A DNA stretch of 64,000 nt from Propionispora vibrioides. GTDB lineage: Bacteria; Bacillota; Negativicutes; Propionisporales; Propionisporaceae. Location: contig NZ_FODY01000007.1 of assembly GCF_900110485.1 (NCBI RefSeq), forward strand, positions 62,001 through 126,000, in the 5' to 3' direction. Below the pieces are notes generated by a model that searched no databases, was not told where the DNA came from, and saw nothing but the letters and a program-made list of their open reading frames with translations. The position numbers and the translations under genes were made by a program. Positions 32,214 through 64,000 of the stretch are shown here, piece by piece (position 1 is the first letter of the stretch; the number at the start of each line of letters is the position of its first letter).

Positions 32214-32462
32214 CAAAAAAAAACGGTCGTGAGCCATCTCACAACCGTACGATTACCGCATAAACCAGCGCAGTAAAACTTTCTGTGAGATAGCGCTTCA
32301 TCCAATGGTGGGAAACCCGGATGACAGTGTTGTATTTATTCAATACAACCCCAGCAGCCGCCCTGGCCAGGGCACGGCCGCTTCGGCGGGTATTCCTCCC
32401 CTGCAGTTTATCGCCAGCCAGCTCACTGCAGTTTCATAATCCCCGCACCTCTATCTGATCAC
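32214..32462 (-). promoter_or_regulatory. Lysine riboswitch (L-box) with terminator
   Basis: On minus, the aptamer starts GATAGAGGTGCGGG, has CCCGCCGAAGCG, the hallmark TTGTATTGAATAAATACAAC with ACTGTC after it, and closes with AAGCGCTATCTCAC near 32284. A terminator follows: CGGTTGTGAG-ATGG-CTCACGACCG and nine T residues (32214-32247). Its 5' arm competes with the closing strand, so lysine binding should turn off lysP. Confidence 0.93.
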
Positions 32463-46147: not shown

Positions 46148-46413
46148 ATAGCAAGAATATACCATGGCGATGAACGGGAATAGTAGAAGTGTGAAAGGGT
46201 TTCAGAGAGCCGGAGGTTGGTGCGATCCGGTACATTTCAGACTTTGAACTCGCCTGTGAGCTGCAGCCCGATGACTAGGTAGGGTGTGCCGGAGTTCCAC
46301 CGTTACAGGGATAGATGGTGTTGGCCGTCGAACAAGCGGGTTCTTTATTGAACCAATTAGAGTGGTACCACGAGTTTACCCCCGTCTCTATCTATATAGA
46401 GACGGGGTTTTTT
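46148..46413 (+). promoter_or_regulatory. T-box leader, leucine-specific
   Basis: Stem I opens with GATGAACGGGAATAGTAGAA. The likely specifier is CTC (46249-46251, Leu) in the loop TTTGAACTCGCC. The T-box sequence TTAGAGTGGTACCACG lies at 46358-46373. The terminator is CCCGTCTCTAT-CTAT-ATAGAGACGGG with TTTTTT. Uncharged tRNA-Leu should stabilise the antiterminator and switch on leuA. Confidence 0.93.
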
Positions 46414-53315: not shown

Positions 53316-54281
53316 CTACTCCCGGGAACAGACAACGCCGTCCCGGGAATCGACCACGCAATTTTTCGAACATCTTTTTCCCAGATACAAGCCGTTATCC
53401 AGCACCCGCATGCTTTCATCCAACTCGGAATCGGCGGCCAGCACAATTACCGACAACGTGATAGTCAGGGAAAACTCACGGCCGCGATACAGAAAAACCT
53501 GTTTGGCAATAGCTGCTCTGACTTGTTCGGCACGCTGTTTCGCTTCAGTCAGTCCGGCTCCCGGCAACAGCATCAAGAACTCCTCACCGCCCCAGCGCGC
53601 CAGGTAGTTCTGACTGCCCAGCACTGACCGCATGCATGCCGACACAGTTTTCAGCACCATATCGCCGCATTCATGACCATAGGTGTCGTTTACCTGCTTG
53701 AAATTATCAATATCCCCCAAGATGAGCGCACACTGACCGCCTTCCCGTTTCAGCCGTTCCATTTCCTGCTGCAGGGTTTCCATCATGCTGCGACGGTTAG
53801 CCAACCCTGTGACGTAATCGGTTTTAGCGGAAATTTCCAGTTTCTCCATCATCTTTTTTAATTCTTCGTTCTTTTGCTCCATCTGTAGAATATATTGCTG
53901 CAATGTTTTCTGCGATTGCCTCAGTTCCAGATGGACCTTGATTCTAGCCTGCAGTTCCAATGCGTAGAAAGGCTTGATGATATAGTCCTGACCGCCGCTG
54001 CGAAAGCCCTCCACAACATCCCTGATCTGAGTAGCGCTGGTTATAAAGATAACCGGAATATCCGCCAAATCAGAACGGCTTTTCAAAGCGCGGCAAATAG
54101 CGAAACCATCGAGACCGGGCATGATAATATCCAATAAAATGAGATCTGGCTGGCAAGCAGCCGCCAGTTCAAGCGCCCGGTTCCCCTCCTGGGCCTCAAT
54201 AATCTCATGCCTGTCCTGCAGGAAATTACGCACAATTTTTATTTCTACCGGACTGTCATCAACAACCAGTATTTTTGCCAT
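53316..54281 (-). CDS. Response regulator with GGDEF diguanylate cyclase domain
   Basis: A 321-residue PleD-like protein. The receiver (1-120) has VVDDSPVEIKIVRNFL, the phospho-acceptor in LILLDIIMPGLDGF and Lys in YIIKPF. A coiled coil (about 125-155) leads to the GGDEF domain with GDIDNFKQVNDTYGHECGD and an intact RWGGEEF near residue 245. The end is odd: where active enzymes usually have an SIGVA strand and an AKxxGRN motif, this has LSVIVLAADSE and YLGKRCSKNCVV. It follows the REC gene by 25 bp and belongs to the chemosensory block. Confidence 0.9.
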   Translation of the reverse strand: MAKILVVDDSPVEIKIVRNFLQDRHEIIEAQEGNRALELAAACQPDLILLDIIMPGLDGFAICRALKSRSDLADIPVIFITSATQIRDVVEGFRSGGQDYIIKPFYALELQARIKVHLELRQSQKTLQQYILQMEQKNEELKKMMEKLEISAKTDYVTGLANRRSMMETLQQEMERLKREGGQCALILGDIDNFKQVNDTYGHECGDMVLKTVSACMRSVLGSQNYLARWGGEEFLMLLPGAGLTEAKQRAEQVRAAIAKQVFLYRGREFSLTITLSVIVLAADSELDESMRVLDNGLYLGKRCSKNCVVDSRDGVVCSRE

Positions 54282-54306
54282 AGTTATCCATCTGCCTTAC
54301 TTATTT

Positions 54307-55104
54307 TTATTTATAATTTTCGCCGCCGCGCGAGTTACCGGGAAAATGACGAACAACCGCCGACAAAAAAGCATGCCCCTGCCCGGCCAGATCTTCAGTG
54401 AACTCCAAATCATGGGCAATTCCTTTCACGATGCCGCCTTTAGTTTCAATCGCCTGCACCAGCCGGTCCAAGACAGCCAGCACTTCTTTTTTCAGGCTGG
54501 CGGTTGCACCAAAATTCAGCAGCAACCGCGGCTCTTCCTCCAGGTGTTCCTGCAGTTCAATCAACAGACTCTGACAGCTAACCGGTGACAATGCGGGATA
54601 AATAGCAATTTGTACCACTTTGCCGTCCCGGAAAATCTGATAGGGCGGCAGGCGCACCTCTCCTGCCGTCTTCAGCCGTTCATCCGGCCCGGCAGTCCCC
54701 TTCAAACGGCGTACCAGTTCCAGGTGCTTTTGATAATCAAGTTTCTGATTCAGAACATTACCGACAACCTCTGCCACTTTACTGGCAGTAATAGGTTTTA
54801 TAATAAAATGCCGGGCGCCCCGTTCCAGCGAATCCAGAATAACCGGCCGCTCCTCAATGGCGCTGATAACAATAATCCGCGCCTCAGGGTAACCGGCAAT
54901 GATCTTGGAGATCGTCTCCGCCCCGCTAATACCCTCCATCGTCATGTCCATCGTCACCACATCCGGTTTGTGTTTGACATATTCAGCAAAGGCCTGTGCC
55001 CCATTCGCCGCTTCCGCCACAACCTTATGCCCTAACTCCTGCATGATCTCGATTAATTTTTTCCGGGCAACCGCCGAATCATCTACAATAAGTACACGAG
55101 CCAT
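54307..55104 (-). CDS. CheY-like response regulator with C-terminal STAS-like domain
   Basis: A 265-residue protein. The receiver (1-120) holds VLIVDDSAVARKKLIEIM, the acceptor Asp in VVTMDMTMEGISGAET and Lys in HFIIKPITASK. Residues 155-250 alternate strands and helices (VVQIAIYPALSPVSCQSLLI, LLLNFGATASLKKEVLAVLD), which resembles a degenerate STAS domain; this second call is tentative. It is the first gene after cheA on this strand, but two repeats fill the gap. It likely receives phosphate from the CheA hybrid. Confidence 0.8.
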   Translation of the reverse strand: MARVLIVDDSAVARKKLIEIMQELGHKVVAEAANGAQAFAEYVKHKPDVVTMDMTMEGISGAETISKIIAGYPEARIIVISAIEERPVILDSLERGARHFIIKPITASKVAEVVGNVLNQKLDYQKHLELVRRLKGTAGPDERLKTAGEVRLPPYQIFRDGKVVQIAIYPALSPVSCQSLLIELQEHLEEEPRLLLNFGATASLKKEVLAVLDRLVQAIETKGGIVKGIAHDLEFTEDLAGQGHAFLSAVVRHFPGNSRGGENYK

Positions 55105-55141
55105 GAGCAGGCTCCCCCTTTTCCGGTTTTTCAGCCGCAGC

Positions 55142-55304
55142 TAGTGTTTTGACTAAGTTAAATCTTAGGTTAGACAGCATATCTTTTTTCGCACCGCTGC
55201 GTTGTCGTCGCCTTACGTATTCCCGATATGCGCGCCTCCTCCGCCTTGCATTGCAAAAAAATCTATACTGCCTAATCCTAATTCACAACTTTGCCAAGAC
55301 ACTA
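55142..55304 (-). repeat. Family C palindromic repeat, copy C4
   Basis: Ends TAGTGTTTTGACTAAGTT and, complemented, TAGTGTCTTGGCAAAGTT (14 of 18 match). The core has GCGTTGTCGTCGCCTTACGT and CGCGCCTCCTCCGCCTTGC. It shares its terminal TA with C5. Confidence 0.87.
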
Positions 55305-55465
55305 GTACCTTATCAACCCTAAAACAGTAGAATAATGGCGAGGCTATTTTTTACAAGACAAGGCGAAGGAAGGAGACATACCGTAAGTATGCTGCCTGAC
55401 GACAACGAAGGTCTGCGGAAAATAGACCGTCAGTATTCACAGGATTAGGGTTGACAAGGTACTTA
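55303..55465 (+). repeat. Family C palindromic repeat, copy C5
   Basis: Ends TAGTACCTTATCAACCCTAA and, complemented, TAAGTACCTTGTCAACCCTA. The core has AAGGCGAAGGAAGGAGACAT, GTAAGTATGCTGCCT and GACGACAACGAAGG. The right TA lies inside the cheA stop codon TAA. Confidence 0.9.
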
Positions 55466-58153
55466 GCCCTGCTTATTCTTCTGCAGCACGGCAACAACAC
55501 TTTTTAATAATCTGGCCCTGTTTAATTTACCTTCATATAAATCAAATCCGGCCCGCAAGCCTCTTTCCCGGTTGGTTGCACCGCTTAAGGAAGTCAGGGC
55601 AATCACCGGTAAATGCTTAAGCTCCTCCCGCGCCCGGATGGTTCGTACCAACTCCAGTCCGTCCATCCGGGGCATCTCCACATCACTGACAACCACATCA
55701 AAAACCTGACTGGACAAGGCCGCCAGCGCTTGTACCCCATCCTCCACCACCACAACCTCGTAGCCATCACTTTCCAGATAGCTTTTGGTCACACGGGCGA
55801 AAAAGGGAGTATCCTCGGCCAGTAAAATTTTCGCCCGCCGTGGTGCCACAGCGGCCGCCTGCTCCGCCGGAAACTGCTGGGAGGCCTGATAATATTCGGG
55901 TACCGCCGCCTGAAACAGAGCATACATATCCAGCAGCGTGACGATATGGCCGTTCACCAGAATAGAACCCAGGGCGCTCTGTCCACTGATATGGCAGCCC
56001 TCCAGTTGGATCGGCGTGGAAACCACATCATAAATTTCCTCGGCCATAATGCCAACCGGGAATCTGACAAACCGGGGCAAAATGACATACACCCAGTTAC
56101 GCTTAGTCTTCCGCCTGCCGAGTGGCAAATGATATTCCGGCCGGATAACACGGATAATCCGTCCCTGAAAGGTAATATACTGCTGCGAACCGATTTTCTG
56201 CAAGGCCGTTGCCGCCACCTTCTCCACTCTGGCCACCATCGACAGGTCAACCCCCAGCATTTCGCCGCCGGAGGTCCTAAACAGCAGCAGCCCCGTCTCC
56301 TCCGGCCGGGAGGTTTCCTCCGCTGTCGGCCGCAGCTGTTCGTCCTGCAGCCGCAGCTTAGCTTTCAGGTGGACATGTTCCAAATCGAGGATCATCGCAA
56401 TCCGTCCGTCACCCAGCACGGTTACCCCGGAATAGCAGCCGCTGGTTTTCAGGGCGGCCGGAACCGGCTTTACCAGAATTTCCTCGGTGTCATAAACGGC
56501 ATCCACCGCCAGGCCGTACCACAAGCTGCCGCTCTTAATTACCAGAATGCGAAAGGTCCGGGTTTCATCGGCGAAATAAGCCGCGCTGTCGGTATTATTT
56601 CCGTCCATTTCGAGAATATCGGCGAGCCGGACCAGTGGCAACAGCCGGTTACGCAACCGCAACACCGGCGAGGTCTGAATAAATTCAATCCGTTTTTGCC
56701 GTTGATTGCCTGGCTGCAGCAACACCAATTCCTTGACATTGGCCTGCGGGATGGCAAAGGCCTCGCCTGCCGCTTCCACAATAAAGGAAGAAATAATGAC
56801 CAAGGTCAGCGGCAGCAGCAGACGAAACGTGGTACCCCGCTCTCTGGTGGTGAACACCTCCACTTTACCGCCCAGTTTTTCAATGTTGGTTTTGACCACA
56901 TCCATGCCGACGCCCCGACCGGATACGGCGGTAACCTGGTCAGCGGTGGAAAACCCCGGTTTCATAATGAAGCTCAGCAAATCGCTTTCCTTTAACAGCG
57001 CTGCTTCCGTTTCCGTCACCCAGCCTCTGGCCACCGCCTTGGTTCTGATTTTCTCCAGATCAATGCCGGTCCCGTCATCCTGGATATCAATCACTACCCG
57101 GCCGCTCTCATGGTAGGCGTGCAGCAGCAGCGTCGCCGGCAGGCGCTTGCCCTTGTCCAGCCTAACTTGAGGCAACTCGATGCCATGGTCCAGGGCATTG
57201 CGTACCAGGTGAGTCATTGGATCGACCAGCGCTTCAATGATGGAACGGTCCATTTCCACGTTCATCCCCTGAGTAACCAGTTCTACCTCTTTCCCTAAAC
57301 TGCGCGCCAATTCCCGGACAATGCGGGGAAACTTATTAAATACATTGGCTACAGGCTGCATTCTGGCCTTCATAACCTTTTCCTGCAGTTTGGTTGTCAG
57401 ACTGTCGATGCCATGGGTTACCACATCCAGTTGCGGCGCTTCGCAGCCGATGCTTTCGGTAATACGTAGCAGTTGATTGCGTCGCAAAACCATTTCACCG
57501 ATAATATTCAGCAGATCGTCGAGTAGTGCTACCTTGACCCGGACGCTTTCCTCAAACAAGCCGTTTTTCGCCCGGCCGGCCTCGGTATAGGGCTCTTTTA
57601 CCGCGCTATTGCCGGACGCCGGTACGGTATTTTGATTACCAGGTACTGGTAGGATTTCAGCCTGCGGCGCCAGTGCTTGTGCTGCGGCAACCTCCTGAGC
57701 GGCATCACCGGTCAACTGGTCCCACAGATCCCAAACACCCTGCGGACTTTCCATACTGGACAGTTCTTCCTGCGCTTCACCGTTCAGAGCGTTCAGAACG
57801 CCCAGAGGCCCCTCAATGGCGATGAATTCCTGATCGGCAGGATTATTCACCAACTCTTTCAACTGATCGGCAGCCGTTAACAGTCCGTCAATCATCGCTA
57901 CGGTAATACAGCAATCCTGATTGCGCAGTCTTCCCAGCAGCGTTTCCATTGCGTGCGTCAGGGTTACGATTTTATCCATTTCAAAAAAACCGGCCGTCCC
58001 CTTGATACTGTGAACGGCGCGAAACAGCTCATTTAGCAGGGGCGTCTCGTAACTGCCCTCTTCCAGGCGCAGCAACCCGGCCTCCAGCGTTCCGATATGT
58101 CCTTTGGCCTCTTCAATAAATTCTTGCAGTAATTCCTGACCGAAATCCATCAT
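55463..58153 (-). CDS. cheA: CheA-type hybrid histidine kinase with two CheW domains and a receiver
   Basis: An 896-residue cytosolic kinase. The order is HPt (His48 in LFRAVHSIKGTAGFFEMD), dimerisation and ATPase domains (LVRNALDHGIELP, DDGTGIDLEKI, SGRGVGMDVVKTNIEKLGG), a first CheW domain near 445-580, a second near 615-755 (ISGQSALGSILVNGHIVTLL), and a C-terminal receiver (ILLAEDTPFFARVTKSYL with VVSDVEMPRMDGLEL). No P2 domain is obvious. The ATG chosen has GAGTGG five bases ahead. With the Cache receptor upstream and two REC proteins downstream it forms a chemosensory-type array feeding cyclic di-GMP. Confidence 0.93.
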   Translation of the reverse strand: MMDFGQELLQEFIEEAKGHIGTLEAGLLRLEEGSYETPLLNELFRAVHSIKGTAGFFEMDKIVTLTHAMETLLGRLRNQDCCITVAMIDGLLTAADQLKELVNNPADQEFIAIEGPLGVLNALNGEAQEELSSMESPQGVWDLWDQLTGDAAQEVAAAQALAPQAEILPVPGNQNTVPASGNSAVKEPYTEAGRAKNGLFEESVRVKVALLDDLLNIIGEMVLRRNQLLRITESIGCEAPQLDVVTHGIDSLTTKLQEKVMKARMQPVANVFNKFPRIVRELARSLGKEVELVTQGMNVEMDRSIIEALVDPMTHLVRNALDHGIELPQVRLDKGKRLPATLLLHAYHESGRVVIDIQDDGTGIDLEKIRTKAVARGWVTETEAALLKESDLLSFIMKPGFSTADQVTAVSGRGVGMDVVKTNIEKLGGKVEVFTTRERGTTFRLLLPLTLVIISSFIVEAAGEAFAIPQANVKELVLLQPGNQRQKRIEFIQTSPVLRLRNRLLPLVRLADILEMDGNNTDSAAYFADETRTFRILVIKSGSLWYGLAVDAVYDTEEILVKPVPAALKTSGCYSGVTVLGDGRIAMILDLEHVHLKAKLRLQDEQLRPTAEETSRPEETGLLLFRTSGGEMLGVDLSMVARVEKVAATALQKIGSQQYITFQGRIIRVIRPEYHLPLGRRKTKRNWVYVILPRFVRFPVGIMAEEIYDVVSTPIQLEGCHISGQSALGSILVNGHIVTLLDMYALFQAAVPEYYQASQQFPAEQAAAVAPRRAKILLAEDTPFFARVTKSYLESDGYEVVVVEDGVQALAALSSQVFDVVVSDVEMPRMDGLELVRTIRAREELKHLPVIALTSLSGATNRERGLRAGFDLYEGKLNRARLLKSVVAVLQKNKQG

Positions 58154-58254
58154 TGTCACCACTCATTTTTTGATCTGCCGGCTGGCGCAGCCTGTCTGTG
58201 CCACCTTCCGGCGCGGACGCCGCTGCTGCCGGGAAATATGGCTGTCGCGGGTGC

Positions 58255-60576
58255 TTAGACCTTAAACTGTTCTACCAGCCGTTCCAGATGGCGGGCTGTT
58301 TCGCCCAGTTCACTGGCGGAGCCGCTGGTGTGTGAAGCGGTGGCAGCCATATCCGCCGTGGCGGCATCGGCTTCCTGAATACTTTCCGTAATATTTTGCG
58401 TCCCTTGCGCGATTTCTTTGGTTGCCAGGGCGATATTCCCCATCACCGCAGCCATTTGATCAGCACTTTTCGCCATTTCCATTGCTTTGATCGAAATATC
58501 CGCCGTGGCCTCATCCACCTGTCTGACCCCTTCCGAAGCCGCTACCGCCATTTGCGAGACCTGTTGGGCATGGGCTGCGATATCACTGATTTCCTTGCTG
58601 ATACCCGCCACTTCCTGGACGCCGGCCGTCATCGCCGTCGTGATATCGCCGACGCTATGCGATTGTTCGGCCACTGCCGAAGCAATCGTGCGGGTAATGC
58701 CGGTCGTTTCCGTGATAACCGTGGCAATTTTCCCCACCGCACCGACTGCTGCCCCCATATCGCTGTGCATTTCCTCGATTTGCTGGGCAATATGCCTTGT
58801 TTCTTCCGCCGTCCGTTTCGCCAATTCCTTGACCTCGGCCGCCACTACGGCAAAACCCTTGCCTGCCTCGCCGGCCCCGGCCGCCTCAATAGTCGCGTTT
58901 AACGCCAGCATATTGGTTTGCTCGGCGATATTACGAATTACGTCGACAATTTGATTAATTCGTTTCGTTGTGGTACTTAGTTTTTGGATGATAGCCGTCG
59001 TTTCCTGCGACTGATTTTCTGCCGCCAGCGTTATCTGAATGGATCTGTCACATTGCTGGCCGACCTGACTAAGTGAATGGCTGATTTCTTGTACCGCCCG
59101 GTCTACATCCTCCATGGAGGCGGAGACATCGCCGGCCGCAACGGCCACACGGTTGATACTTTGCGATATTTCCTCCACTACGTCGCTGACCTGATCCACC
59201 TGTCCGGCAATCCGGCTGGTCGTTTCCGCCACATGCTGCGAGGCAGCCGACATCCCATTCGCCAGCCCGGCCACCGCGTCCACACTATGGCTTACCTCTT
59301 CGGCCGAGCTGGCCGTTTCCTCAATGCCGGCCGAAATTTCTTCCACTGTGGCGCTGATTGTCGATATCTGGGCGCTCATTTGCTCACTATTGGCCGCCAA
59401 GGTAGTCGAAACATCAATCAGGTCGACCGAAGATTCCTTCAACTGCCCCGTCGTCTGCCGGATATCCCCAACCATGCCGCCCAGTACCTGCAGTGTATGG
59501 TTCACTGCGCCGGTCAGCGCCCCAATTTCATCGTTGGCGTATACCTTGCCGCGCACCGTAAAATCACCGGTTTCCACTAAAGCCATCATGGACTGAAAAT
59601 CATTAAGCGGCCGAATGATCAGTCTGGTGAGCAGCAACCCGGTCATCCCGATAATCAATATAGCCACAATCAACGGCGTCAGAAGGGAGATGCGGGTAAT
59701 CGCCGTCAACTGTCCCTGCACTTCGTCCGCCGGTACCGAGGCCACCAAGGCCCAGCTGCCGCCGGACACCGGCGCATACCCTGCATACTTGTCCACATTA
59801 CCCCAACGGTAAGGAGTAATGCCGCTCTCTCCCTGCAAGGCCTGTGTTAATGCCTGCTGCAGGCGGGAATCGCCTTCTTTGAGAAAATTGCTTTTCATTG
59901 CCACATTCTTATCCGGATGGGCAATGACCAGCCCGTCGCCCTGGACCAAAAAAGCATAGCCCGTTTTATATACCTTGGTTCCGGTAACCTTCTGCATCAA
60001 TTTTTCAATATTCATACTGCCGCCAATCATGCCGATTACCCGGCCATCCCGTTTAAGCGGTACGGCTACGACAACCACCAGATTTCCCGAGGTTTTAGAG
60101 ATAACCGGATCGGAAACCACTGTCTTTCCTTTCATAACTTCGGGAAAATACACGCGGTCACTGATGTTGGCACCGCCCTGAATAATCCCGCCTCCGTCAT
60201 TGCGGGTGGCCGAGAAATAATCGCCCTTTTCATTAGCTACAAACAGGACATCATAATCGGTTGCCCGGGCCATCTCACGGGCCAGATACGGCCAGGTCCG
60301 TGCAGCATTGCCCACCTCTACCAGGGGGGAGTTGGCCAAGGTGGTAATATAGGACTTCTGCTCATCCAGCCACAGCCCCACCTCCTGGCCTGAACTGACG
60401 GCTAACGCCTGAATAGACTGTTCGGTATTCTCCACCAACGCCTTTTGTGCCGTCTCATAAATCAGAAACGATGATAACGCAAGTCCGGCTACGACGGCGA
60501 CCACCAGAATTCCGATTAACTTTTTTCTAATACTGTGCATACCCTTACTTGCCTTTGTCCGTCCACCTGTTCCCAT
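58255..60576 (-). CDS. Methyl-accepting chemotaxis protein with dCache sensor
   Basis: A 773-residue receptor. Membrane helices lie at about 17-40 and 308-335. The outer dCache domain has AREMARATDYDVLFVANEKG, the motif DRVYFPEVMKGKTVVSDPVI and IGMIGGSMNIEKL. A HAMP region (PLNDFQSMMALVETGDFTVR) and the signalling domain with AEQTNMLALNATIEAAGAGE follow. The ATG at 60576 has GGGAGG nine bases ahead; the common start MHSIRKK lies 12 codons inside and is an alternative. Ligands of such domains are often amino acids or organic acids. It lies 100 bp upstream of cheA. Confidence 0.92.
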   Translation of the reverse strand: MGTGGRTKASKGMHSIRKKLIGILVVAVVAGLALSSFLIYETAQKALVENTEQSIQALAVSSGQEVGLWLDEQKSYITTLANSPLVEVGNAARTWPYLAREMARATDYDVLFVANEKGDYFSATRNDGGGIIQGGANISDRVYFPEVMKGKTVVSDPVISKTSGNLVVVVAVPLKRDGRVIGMIGGSMNIEKLMQKVTGTKVYKTGYAFLVQGDGLVIAHPDKNVAMKSNFLKEGDSRLQQALTQALQGESGITPYRWGNVDKYAGYAPVSGGSWALVASVPADEVQGQLTAITRISLLTPLIVAILIIGMTGLLLTRLIIRPLNDFQSMMALVETGDFTVRGKVYANDEIGALTGAVNHTLQVLGGMVGDIRQTTGQLKESSVDLIDVSTTLAANSEQMSAQISTISATVEEISAGIEETASSAEEVSHSVDAVAGLANGMSAASQHVAETTSRIAGQVDQVSDVVEEISQSINRVAVAAGDVSASMEDVDRAVQEISHSLSQVGQQCDRSIQITLAAENQSQETTAIIQKLSTTTKRINQIVDVIRNIAEQTNMLALNATIEAAGAGEAGKGFAVVAAEVKELAKRTAEETRHIAQQIEEMHSDMGAAVGAVGKIATVITETTGITRTIASAVAEQSHSVGDITTAMTAGVQEVAGISKEISDIAAHAQQVSQMAVAASEGVRQVDEATADISIKAMEMAKSADQMAAVMGNIALATKEIAQGTQNITESIQEADAATADMAATASHTSGSASELGETARHLERLVEQFKV

Positions 60577-60896
60577 GCTGTCTGGCCTCCCGCAAAATAA
60601 CATAATTCTACAAAGTATGAACTATTTATACAGTCGTCCTGTATTTTCCTGTATGATTGCCCGGATTGTCTGCTATTCTCACGTAAGATTATCTTTCTGG
60701 ATAACCCATTCCCCTTCTGCTTATCCTCTTGGATAACACTTGCCCCGACAACAAACTCCGCAACTTCCCGCACCAATAATCTGCCAGCCCGGGCCGGCAG
60801 GAAACAACCCTCTCACAGGGAAATAAACATAATATATCTACCGTCTTACCCGCGCAGCAACCCGATAGACCATGCAGAACAAGAGGTGTCAGTCCC
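60577..60896. promoter_or_regulatory. Divergent promoter region of the receptor and REC-PucR genes
   Basis: The 320 bp gap shows no gene or repeat of families A to D. Two GGATAAC motifs near 60702 and 60732 are direct repeats on plus and could bind a regulator. No clear promoter was identified. Confidence 0.35.
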
Positions 60897-62111
60897 GTGA
60901 TAAAAACCATTCTTATCGACGATGAACCGCCGGCACTCGAGGTATTATCCCACCTGCTCCGGCAATATCCTGTTCTTGAGATCGTAGGTGAATATACCGA
61001 TATCGAGGCAGCCTGTCAGCGGCTCCGGCAGGAGCCGGTACAACTGGTCTTCCTGGACATACACATGCCGCCGGCCAACGGCCTCGACGCCGCCAGAAGA
61101 ATGTATCAATACCAGAATAACCTGGCCATTGTCTTTGTTACCGCCCATAATCAGTTCGCCCTGCAGGCCTTCGAAGTCAACGCTGTTGACTATATTGTTA
61201 AACCGGTCATCAAACGACGGCTCGATGCCACCATCGAGAAAATTATGAGCAAGTGCCCGCCGGCTGCTTACGAACCACTGCCCAAGCGGCAGGGTGAATT
61301 TTTAAACCGTCTGCTTGGCGGGACGCTGACCGTCGACAAAGAAATAGCCGGGCAGGCCCGGCAGTTGGAGCTTGATGCTACCCAGCCCTTTTCCCTCTTT
61401 TTTCTGCTGCCGAATACCTGGGACAAAACACCGGCTACCAACTGCCGCGCCGCTATGCTTGACACATTGACCGGCGGTTCCCTGCTGGCCTGGGAAACAC
61501 CCCAGGGCTTAGGCGTACTGGATTTTTCCTCCGTCCCCGCCGGCAGTGGCAAGGAAACGGAACGGCTTGCCGCCGACCGCCTGAAAACCTTGCTGGACGC
61601 CCGCTTCCCCCACGCAATCAGGGCGGTTGGAATTGCCCAGCAGAGGGGAGACCTGCGCAGCCTTGCCGACAGATACCGGGAGGCCCGCAATGCCGCCTTG
61701 ATCGGCATACGAATATCCCCTCAGGCAGGAATTTATCACTTCCTGGACAGTGGACTGCAGGTGACATTAGCCCATTATATTCCGCAGGCAAAAATGGATG
61801 CCCTGATTAATGATACCTTCGGCAAACTGCTTCGCTATGACCAGCAAAACGGCACCGAACTGTTTGCTACGCTCGAAGCTATCTTGCTGAACGACAGCCT
61901 GCAGGTAGTGGCGGAAAAGCTGTTTATTCATTATAAAACCGTCTTGTTCCGCAAGCAGTCGATTGAAAAAATCCTGGGGTTCCCCCTGAATTCTTTTACG
62001 GGGCGCACAACCTTAGGCGTCGCCCTGACTTTGCTTTATTTAAATCAGCTTCCCTCTGCCACCACTGCCCCGTCAGCCACAGCGGCTGATAAAAATAAAA
62101 CCAGGGCGTAG
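60897..62111 (+). CDS. Response regulator with PucR/CdaR-type helix-turn-helix output
   Basis: A 404-residue protein. The receiver (1-120) has TILIDDEPPALEVLSHLLRQ, the acceptor Asp in LVFLDIHMPPANGL and Lys in VDYIVKPVIKRRLD. A middle domain of about 180 residues (VDKEIAGQARQLELDATQPF onward) resembles the GGDEF-like region of CdaR regulators. The C-terminal HTH_30 is LEAILLNDSLQVVAEKLFIH and YKTVLFRKQSIEKILGF. The start is GTG at 60897 with AGAGGTG upstream. The convergent double kinase is its probable partner. LytTR-type receivers are common with such kinases; a PucR-type output is unusual. Confidence 0.87.
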   Translation: MIKTILIDDEPPALEVLSHLLRQYPVLEIVGEYTDIEAACQRLRQEPVQLVFLDIHMPPANGLDAARRMYQYQNNLAIVFVTAHNQFALQAFEVNAVDYIVKPVIKRRLDATIEKIMSKCPPAAYEPLPKRQGEFLNRLLGGTLTVDKEIAGQARQLELDATQPFSLFFLLPNTWDKTPATNCRAAMLDTLTGGSLLAWETPQGLGVLDFSSVPAGSGKETERLAADRLKTLLDARFPHAIRAVGIAQQRGDLRSLADRYREARNAALIGIRISPQAGIYHFLDSGLQVTLAHYIPQAKMDALINDTFGKLLRYDQQNGTELFATLEAILLNDSLQVVAEKLFIHYKTVLFRKQSIEKILGFPLNSFTGRTTLGVALTLLYLNQLPSATTAPSATAADKNKTRA

Positions 62112-62147
62112 GTACATCTCCCCGGAAGGAAGCCCTACACCCTGCAC

Positions 62148-62289
62148 TAATACCGCAACAACCCTAATCCCGGATAATGACGGTATATTTTCCGTAACAC
62201 TATATTTATTGTCGGTCGGCATACGTTTGGTATGCCTTTTTCCTCCGCCTTGCTTTACGGAAAATCCCCTTTAAAGCTGATTCGGCCTA
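62148..62289 (-). repeat. Family C repeat, copy C8
   Basis: Ends TAATACCGCAACAACCCTAA and, complemented, TAGGCCGAATCAGCTTTAAA. The core has GGCATACGTTTGGTATGCCT and CCTCCGCCTTGC. The right terminal CTA is the complement of the TAG stop of the kinase gene. Confidence 0.82.
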
Positions 62290-64000
62290 CCCTGCCGGTT
62301 CCGCCGTAACAGGAATCCGAAAAGTTACGGTGGTTCCCTTGCCCACCTCGCTGACAAGTGTCAGCTTTTGCCCATAAAAGGAGAGTAAACGCCGGTTGAT
62401 ATTTCGCAAACCAATCCCGTCATTCGCCCTGTCGGCATCAGCCAATAGGCTGGACAGCCGGTCAGCCGGAATTCCCACACCGCTATCGGCAACCGTTATG
62501 ACCGCATTGTCCTTATCCTTTTCCACCGCGATCCGGACCCGGCCTCTGCCGCCTTGTCTCATAATACCATGCTGAATCGCATTTTCTACTAACGGTTGGA
62601 TGGTTAGCGGCAAAATATGGCCTTGCAATACATCGGGATCAATAGCATATTCTACCTCCAGCCTGTCGCCAAAACGGGCTTTTTCCAGTTCTACATAGGA
62701 ATGCACCAATTCCAGTTCATTCTCCAGGCTGGTATAAACCGAAGTTCCTCGGATTTCAAAGCTTTTACGCAAATAATTGCTGAATTCGCTCAGCAGCATC
62801 CCGGCTTTTTCCCCGTCGGTATAGCAAAAGGCAACAATGGTATTGAGCGCATTATACAGAAAATGCGGCTTGATCTGGGATTGCAGAAAGGCCATTTCCG
62901 CCCGGACAACATCCTTTACGGCCTTTTGCAGGGACAACAGCGTCCCGACCCGTGACCTGATTTCCTGGCTGGCAAACGGTTTGGCAACAAAATCATTGGC
63001 TCCGGCGGCAAAAGCGGCGGCAATATCCTCCTGTGAATTGCAGGCTGTCAGGATGATGATCGGCAACTCCAGCATGGAATACCTGTTCCTGATCTGGCGG
63101 CACAGTTCGTAGCCCGACATATCCGGCAGCATCACATCCAACAGCACCAAGTCCGGACTGTTTGCCGACCCGGTCTGCGCCAACGCCTCCGCCGCCGTCG
63201 CCGCCGTAAGAATATTATAGTCATCCTTGGCAAATACCCGGAGCACCACCTGCAGATTAGACGGTTCATCATCCACTGCCAAAATAGTAAACTCGCCATT
63301 TTTTAATGTCTGCAGCGGCAGCACTGACTCCAAAGGCTGAAGCTGTCTATCTGTCTGACGGCCGGCGGCCGTGTCTGCCGGCTCCGTGGCTGTCTGGCTG
63401 ACCGCCAGTTCAAAAACAAACCGGGACCCCACACCGGATTCCGACCAGTCAAGCCACAGTTTTCCTCCCATCAGTTCGATTAATTGACGGGAAATTGTTA
63501 GCCCGATTCCCGTGCCCCCCCGTCTATGCTCGGCTTGCTCAAAGGCGTCAAATATCTTTTCCCGCAGCCCTGCCGGTATGCCGCAGCCCGTATCCTCCAC
63601 GGCAATTCGCAAGCAACTGCCCTGGCTGCCCTGGCTTTCAGCCTTAACCCGGATTTCCCCCTCACGGGTAAATTTCACGGCATTACCGATCAAATTGAAT
63701 AAGACCTGCCGGAGTCTGTCCTCATCGGCCACAATAGTCGGCAGCGTGTCCGGCAATTCCTGCGCCAGCCGGACTTTTCCCGGCGGCAGCAAATACCCGG
63801 CAACATCCAATACGGCGCCAATGACCGGCCGGATATCCACCGGCGCCAGCTGCAGCCGGACTTCCCGGTTTTTAAGCCTGGAAAAATCCAGAATATCATT
63901 GATAAGATTAGTCAGCCTTCGGCTAATGGAAACTATTTGCTGCCAGTGTTCGGCCTGGTGGGAATTTACCGGATTATCCGAACTTTCCAAAGCGGCTTCC
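62287..64000 (-). CDS. Hybrid double sensor kinase, 5' end outside the window
   Basis: The frame is open from the right edge to a TAG at 62287, about 571 codons. Visible order: end of a HisKA dimerisation helix (LTNLINDILDFSRLKNREVR), a first ATPase (LFNLIGNAVKF, DTGCGIPAGLR, GTGIGLTISRQ), a receiver (ILAVDDEPSNLQVVLRV, LVLLDVMLPDMSGY, DFVAKPF), then a LytS-type kinase core (LQSQIKPHFLYNALNTIVAF) and a second ATPase (PLVENAIQHGIM, GIGLRNINRRL). The phosphorylated His of the first kinase and any sensor domain lie beyond the window. Two kinases and a receiver in one chain imply internal phosphate flow, and the convergent REC-PucR protein is the likely output. Confidence 0.9.
   Translation of the reverse strand, partial: EAALESSDNPVNSHQAEHWQQIVSISRRLTNLINDILDFSRLKNREVRLQLAPVDIRPVIGAVLDVAGYLLPPGKVRLAQELPDTLPTIVADEDRLRQVLFNLIGNAVKFTREGEIRVKAESQGSQGSCLRIAVEDTGCGIPAGLREKIFDAFEQAEHRRGGTGIGLTISRQLIELMGGKLWLDWSESGVGSRFVFELAVSQTATEPADTAAGRQTDRQLQPLESVLPLQTLKNGEFTILAVDDEPSNLQVVLRVFAKDDYNILTAATAAEALAQTGSANSPDLVLLDVMLPDMSGYELCRQIRNRYSMLELPIIILTACNSQEDIAAAFAAGANDFVAKPFASQEIRSRVGTLLSLQKAVKDVVRAEMAFLQSQIKPHFLYNALNTIVAFCYTDGEKAGMLLSEFSNYLRKSFEIRGTSVYTSLENELELVHSYVELEKARFGDRLEVEYAIDPDVLQGHILPLTIQPLVENAIQHGIMRQGGRGRVRIAVEKDKDNAVITVADSGVGIPADRLSSLLADADRANDGIGLRNINRRLLSFYGQKLTLVSEVGKGTTVTFRIPVTAEPAG

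Follow-up and report, generated by a model that had tools for sequence, protein, structure and literature searches.

Two-component systems that join a LytS-type kinase to a LytTR-type regulator are well known, BtsS/BtsR among them (PMC10653868; here and below, PMC sources are cited for the parts that bear on each point). Kinase-receiver-kinase proteins, called HK1-RR-HK2, are known as well but scarce: a 2015 PeerJ survey counted 392 in 251 species, including 97 in Firmicutes, of which 69 lie beside a regulator gene, and the parts of the survey drawn on here do not cover the output domain of that partner (PMC4558063). PucR is placed among one-component regulators in an article that names both PucR and LytTR (PMC7694542), and MabR (Rv2242; PMC11617747; 9f80) is an example of the PucR/CdaR one-component group. 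Here we describe a locus of Propionispora vibrioides, in a stretch of 64,000 nucleotides (contig NZ_FODY01000007.1, positions 62,001 to 126,000; hereafter the window), in which the gene of a response regulator with a PucR-type DNA-binding end lies beside that of a double histidine kinase.

The locus has features in common with each of these groups. With BtsS/BtsR it shares the LytS-type kinase box and the LytR/BtsR-like receiver, but it has no LytTR output, and its kinase adds a seven-transmembrane (7TM) DISM sensor and a HisKA-HATPase-receiver block. As in the HK1-RR-HK2 proteins, two kinase modules stand around a receiver. The regulator has a probable GGDEF-like domain followed by an effector helix-turn-helix, as in the PucR/CdaR one-component regulators, whereas its N-terminus is a receiver and that of MabR a globin-like domain. 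The SARP-type DISM double-kinase pairs of the same phylum are alike in kinase layout over its whole length and in having the regulator adjoining, and differ in their SARP output half and in the absence upstream of the palindrome described below. Full-text literature searches, with subscription journals and preprints outside their scope, returned no description of a receiver-PucR regulator among the matches listed.

The regulator and its double kinase

The regulator comprises the following features:

60897-62111, plus strand: response regulator gene, 404 aa, with receiver (REC), GGDEF-like domain and PucR helix-turn-helix (open reading frame, Pfam, full-length relatives in eight other genomes)
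60909-61235, plus strand: receiver domain, LytR/BtsR-like, residues 5-113 (Pfam, NCBI families, Foldseek)
61332-61697, plus strand: GGDEF-like domain of CdaR/PucR type, residues 146-267, cyclase activity not claimed (Pfam, Foldseek)
61860-62030, plus strand: PucR C-terminal helix-turn-helix HTH_30, residues 322-378 (Pfam)

The predicted regulator consists of a LytR-like receiver, a probable GGDEF-like domain and a PucR/CdaR helix-turn-helix. Its receiver matched Response_reg (E 1.1e-21, Pfam on the window), and the residues that mark the receiver of a response regulator, D8, D9, D54, T82 and K102, are invariant in all nine homologues. The top NCBI family models were BtsR and LytR, over the receiver part only and with scores under their cut-offs, and Foldseek matched the receiver to the LytR receiver 6m8o at 34% identity. 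The output half matched HTH_30 (E 1.3e-9; 38.1 bits, cut-off 27), which places the protein in the PucR/CdaR family. Pfam searches at E up to 0.1 found no LytTR domain in the regulator, which is therefore not a LytTR regulator, and neither Trans_reg_C nor BTAD, so that it is not of the SARP type either; the PucR-type end that had been predicted in place of LytTR was thus borne out. The GGDEF_2 match fell just below its cut-off (23.7 bits, 24.5 needed), while homologues scored on either side of it (27.6 bits in G035, 20.7 in G001; genomes are given as G numbers). A structure model of the regulator (mean predicted local distance difference test score, pLDDT, 74.8) gave Foldseek matches to receivers, to diguanylate cyclases (DgcR) and to the C-terminal part of the PucR-family protein Rv2242 (9f80); a VIA-align search with the model had receivers alone among the matches listed and is uninformative on the output half.

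The kinase is encoded on the opposite strand and runs out of the window:

62287-63999, minus strand: C-terminal part of the double histidine kinase gene, whose maximal open reading frame runs on to contig 7 position 127481 (open reading frame, contig extension)
63400-63726, minus strand: first ATPase domain, belonging to the HisKA kinase (Pfam HATPase_c)
62947-63285, minus strand: internal receiver domain (Pfam Response_reg; acceptor D755 invariant in 9/9)
62659-62901, minus strand: LytS-type His_kinase domain with H846 (Pfam PF06580; KPHFLYN in 9/9)
62395-62589, minus strand: second ATPase domain, of the LytS kinase, limits approximate (Pfam HATPase_c_2, residues 471-535)

Within the window, Pfam recognised HATPase_c, Response_reg, the LytS-type His_kinase and a second HATPase; the HisKA match, truncated by the window end, reached 24.3 of the 26.9 bits needed and rose to 52.7 bits once the contig was extended rightwards, where the maximal frame has 1064 codons. 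The original prediction had named this extension as the way to the sensor domain, and a 7TMR-DISM_7TM domain was indeed found there (E 1.2e-11; 45.4 bits, cut-off 29), as in DISM receptors. The order in the extended protein is 7TMR-DISM_7TM, HisKA, HATPase_c, receiver, LytS-type His_kinase and second HATPase. Its HisKA (52.7 bits), HATPase_c (158.3) and receiver (96.3) all exceed their cut-offs, as in a hybrid HisKA kinase, and the PF06580 box (81.8 bits, cut-off 25.2) is followed by an ATPase match, as in a LytS-type kinase, so that the predicted chain of HisKA-type kinase, receiver and LytS-type kinase is present in full. The nine kinases found beside such regulators all share H454 (HisKA), D755 (receiver), H846 (LytS box) and N940 (second ATPase).

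The two genes converge, 175 bp apart, an arrangement already proposed from the window letters and confirmed by Pfam and the contig extension. A regulator profile search gave full-length matches (at least 480 bits) in 9 of 380 genomes of the class; the next-best match had 180 bits and begins beyond the receiver. The double kinase adjoins the regulator in every one of the nine. In six (G001, G311, G297, G299, G298 and G102) both genes abut on one strand, kinase then regulator, with gaps of 1, -7, 1, 4, 1 and 5 nt, and in three (G000, which is the window's own genome, G002 and G035) they are convergent. As eight further genomes also have the two genes adjacent, their pairing is not due to chance, and this conserved adjacency supports the prediction that they are partners. 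An even sample of 398 genomes of the phylum held one full-length regulator match, that of the window's own genome; at most four candidates per genome were scored in the regulator scans of class and phylum, and two in the kinase scans, so that the counts are lower bounds. A scan of genome contigs gave full-length regulator matches in two of the best 80 loci from 574 relatives (Propionispora sp. 2/2-37 and Bacillota bin CTSoil_080), the other 78 matching essentially the receiver. The pairing is rare, as had been surmised. At the 5′ end of the kinase gene, where a LytTR-type partner would have spoken against the pairing, lies a DtxR/MntR-like gene; mannitol uptake genes are also found upstream (by eye from the proteins).

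The LytS module appears to be the likeliest phosphate donor to the regulator, because the regulator receiver is LytR-like, because no other part of the kinase is as well conserved as the LytS domain (on average 62.8% identity between the window kinase and the six same-strand kinases; other domains 17-46%) and because the 868-aa kinase of G001 (L042:6510-9116), from which the entire first HATPase_c is gone while HisKA, receiver and LytS module are kept, still abuts its regulator. Direct donation by the HisKA module, to which the presence of HisKA in 9/9 kinases and of the first ATPase domain in 8/9 might point, is rather unlikely in view of that same G001 kinase and of the LytR type of the regulator receiver.

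Kinase lineages and output types

A survey of co-occurrence, also proposed at the outset, upheld the rarity of the PucR pairing but not the view that LytTR is the usual partner. For the exact DISM double-kinase layout the usual receiver is of the SARP type, and LytTR goes with versions that carry a Cache sensor. In the class, a further DISM double kinase (G024) precedes a REC-Trans_reg_C-BTAD gene, and the Cache-sensor double kinases of G109, G316, G038 and G029 precede REC-LytTR genes (4/4 looked at). No separate receiver gene was found on the stretches around the class double-kinase matches in G031 (cut by the contig end), G097 and G098, and the chains of the last two carry further receiver parts. 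Lower rows of the class scan (G103, G313, G033, G020, G016, G003, G306, G022 and G068) match parts of the kinase only, sequence having been fetched for G103 and G313 alone.

Of the 398 genomes in the phylum sample, 30 matched the kinase with E at or below 1e-120, the window's own among them. Among the receivers near these kinases, a first set of 22 held Trans_reg_C in 20 and BTAD in 16, and a second set of 14, four of them repeated from the first, held Trans_reg_C in 13 and BTAD in 10. HTH_30 was found in neither set, and LytTR, in 0/22 and 0/14, was ruled out as the usual partner of the DISM layout. In all, 32 different receivers lie near 38 kinases other than that of the window; near six of the 38 (G674, G639, G491, G569 contig 49, G581 and G459) no receiver frame was found. 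The trees include 26 kinase-receiver pairs of the phylum, with G508, G564 and G741 (broken or cut), G569 contig 43, G673 and G669 omitted; the receivers of G673 and G669 lie 1.4-1.7 kb from the kinase. In G551 the kinase and receiver genes overlap. Row labels of 'SARP', that of G024 excepted, come from these family tallies, in which 2/22 and 1/14 rows are without Trans_reg_C, the tallies not telling which. To judge by the neighbouring genes, one kinase core serves three output types, LytTR, SARP and PucR.

The nine PucR-type regulators form one clade (100/97; receiver tree of 40 regulators). In the kinase tree, the kinases of the window, G002 and G035 group with that of G024, and the other six stand apart. 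A single clade of PucR-paired kinases was rejected for the catalytic part by the approximately unbiased (AU) test (p 0.008, with G428, G722b, G531, G316 and G001 dropped; p 0.0025 with the further long rows G551, G593a, G401a, G743b, G704b and G714 dropped as well, G001 thus being omitted from both). It was rejected for the sensor half too (G428, G531 and the LytTR rows dropped), with a printed p so small that it should not be taken at face value. These one-clade tests were framed after the first kinase tree had been seen.

Domain identities point the same way. The window kinase is closer to the G024 kinase than, on average, to the other six in the sensor (39.7 against 32.2%), its 7TM part (34.2 against 17.4%), the first ATPase (51.9 against 44.6%), the receiver (52.2 against 45.3%), the LytS box (69.1 against 62.8%) and the second ATPase (50.8 against 40.2%), HisKA being level (44.8 against 45.5%). 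For the window regulator, on the other hand, the regulators of the six are closer relatives than that of G024 in the receiver (50.0 against 33.9%), the middle part (36.2 against 9.2%) and the helix-turn-helix (65.4 against 17.0%). Among SARP receivers the highest identity to the receiver of the window regulator is 46.2%, and the helix-turn-helix part of that regulator (residues 321-385) is 63-71% identical to those of the six. The identities of the two proteins thus point to different relatives, and regulator and kinase seem to have had different histories.

Since the nine regulators form one clade and their kinases do not, the kinases serving this regulator have likely been exchanged. We lean towards a reading in which a REC-PucR regulator with its own palindromic operator would be served by two lineages of double kinase, a kinase of SARP stock having replaced the original one in the window lineage; the kinase would then be an interchangeable input cassette serving three or more DNA-binding outputs, and the regulator would carry its DNA target along. 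The separate lineage of the window kinase, like the GGDEF-like middle domain and the candidate operator, goes beyond what had been predicted.

Two other histories compete with an exchange. It is unlikely, though worth weighing, that the nine kinases are one lineage that has always served this regulator, with the split in the tree produced by uneven rates and long branches. The late framing of the tests would allow for this, as would the warning that accompanies the p of 0.0025, namely that long branches meet at the SARP row of G024; moreover, the starred branches do not by themselves force the split in the tree without long rows, and the sensor half of G102 is not placed with the other five. 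Against it are both AU results, the sensor half, which splits the kinases as well, the contrast of identities in the 7TM part, and the bootstrap trees with long rows removed, in which eight kinases came together in 0/200. Still less likely is an orphan kinase, that is, that the convergent kinase of the window type has lost its SARP regulator and merely lies beside a PucR regulator that has lost its own kinase. Such a past would suit the grouping of these kinases with the SARP-paired kinase of G024 rather than with the other six, the convergence of the genes in G000, G002 and G035, and the window genome, in which no BTAD match was found; but the adjacency is kept in 3/3 genomes of two families, the kinase layout resembles that of coupled pairs, and the palindrome is kept before the regulator.

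A candidate operator and its surroundings

A palindrome, TTATCC-N4-GGATAA, emerged from the promoter regions of the nine pair loci, and in the window it lies between the regulator and a divergent gene for a methyl-accepting chemotaxis protein (MCP):

60689-60704, no strand: candidate operator copy 1, TTATCTTTCTGGATAA, one mismatch (palindrome search)
60721-60736, no strand: candidate operator copy 2, TTATCCTCTTGGATAA, exact, 32 bp from copy 1 (palindrome search)
58255-60603, minus strand: divergent dCache methyl-accepting chemotaxis protein gene, sharing its intergenic region with the regulator (Pfam; same place in G002 and G035)

In eight of the nine pairs an exact copy lies at most 500 nt before the gene that opens the transcription unit of the regulator (the stretch searched was shorter for the window regulator and the G428 kinase), and in all eight a second copy with 0-2 mismatches lies 22 or 32 bp off (two mismatches in G035, G297 and G102). 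No site with at most one mismatch was found upstream of 31 control pairs (27 SARP, 4 LytTR). The hypergeometric chance of 8/9 against 0/31 is 1.2e-7, a figure to be read knowing that the nine are not independent and make up about five lineages by the receiver tree, four of them with the site. Of 100 shuffles of the window, one contained two or more such sites. At each of the three loci with convergent genes the regulator is preceded by the palindrome and the kinase is not, so that the site tracks the regulator. We regard the pair at 60689-60736 as the candidate operator of the regulator; that the palindrome is instead bound by another protein or forms an RNA hairpin, and so is uninformative on the regulator, is improbable, for although the two copies jointly can make a longer inverted repeat, the G299 locus has none and binding by the regulator is a prediction, each copy is palindromic alone, the copies are spaced by 22 or 32 bp, and the palindrome accompanies the regulator gene in both kinase groups, with none in the 31 controls at one mismatch or fewer.

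Elsewhere in the genomes the palindrome is unevenly distributed. The G299 genome is enriched in it (8 exact sites against 0 of the reversed control pattern; 24 against 7 with one mismatch), and six of the eight exact sites form three tandem pairs away from the kinase pair: one (L311:3988-4034) precedes a gene for a 419-aa OmpA-domain protein, the second (L309:4012-4059) lies before a 75-aa frame whose OmpA match falls just below the cut-off (26.9 bits, 27.2 needed) and has a helicase-like gene on its other side, and the third (L310:4033-4080) lies near a possible beta-barrel fragment (by eye). In the window genome no other tandem pair was found. A relaxed tandem pattern occurs in 41 of 379 class genomes, namely in eight of the nine regulator holders (not G102) and in 33 without the regulator, so that taken alone it is no test. 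Of these 33, G362 and G368 have TATCC-N4-GGATA in both copies, and neither genome has the full TTATCC/GGATAA halves (by eye); in the holders G000, G002, G035 and G297 one copy deviates from the TATCC-N4-GGATA core. Single exact palindromes within coding frames were discarded as targets (window genome, contigs 1 and 8; G002, contigs 2 and 38; G001, contig 7; G035, at 672242 and 3327432; G299, contigs 46 and 91). Other single exact copies lie about 100 bp before a V4R-domain gene (G035, L320:2869-2884), which may be chance, and outside long frames in G298 (L315:3051-3066 and L314:3646-3661), one of these before a short frame with a signal-peptide-like start (by eye).

The MCP gene belongs to a chemosensory cluster (53316-60603) that adjoins the pair and also encodes a CheA with CheW parts and a receiver, a receiver protein and a receiver-GGDEF protein, in a gene order identical in G002 and G035. 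A conserved role for this cluster did not stand up: CheA has close homologues (52-54%) in G102, on a contig other than that of the pair, and in G003, where the class scan did not find the regulator. The gap between the convergent genes holds a repeat of about 100-120 bp (62137-62270) with 18 further matches in its own genome (69-83% identity, on many contigs), the predicted fold of which is not unusual (z -0.77). A T-box leader (46161-46392) and a lysine riboswitch (32283-32461), both above their Rfam gathering scores, lie elsewhere in the window.

Proposed signal path and its meaning

In the path that we infer, and that we think quite probable, the pair would act as a two-component system. 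A ligand outside the cell would be the signal taken up by the DISM/7TM sensor, which would drive the HisKA kinase and the receiver of the same chain, the latter acting as an internal control step; phosphate would then flow from the C-terminal LytS-type kinase to Asp54 of the separate regulator, and the phosphorylated protein would bind, through its PucR-type half, the two TTATCC-N4-GGATAA palindromes upstream of its own transcription unit, which are separated by roughly two or three turns of DNA. As the window palindromes lie between the regulator and the divergent chemosensory gene, both genes may be targets.

Several results weigh against this path. The convergent genes of the window cannot form one operon, and no sigma-70-like promoter was found in 60550-60950. 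G299 has both genes and no palindrome upstream of the pair, two of the 31 control pairs have a site with two mismatches, and the window genome is not enriched in the palindrome (3 exact sites against 2 of the reversed control pattern; 29 against 98 with one mismatch). Loss of the first ATPase domain is seen in a single genome, G001, which is listed with 8% contamination, and the structure model of the kinase (mean pLDDT 58.3) was poor and was discarded for fold searches.

The candidate operator, 48 bp long, is concrete enough to test, and the G001 kinase without its first ATPase domain makes the role of the internal relay testable. One regulator family apparently works with two kinase lineages, and one kinase core stands beside LytTR, SARP and PucR outputs; together they may offer a natural experiment on how partnerships between kinases and regulators are kept or changed.

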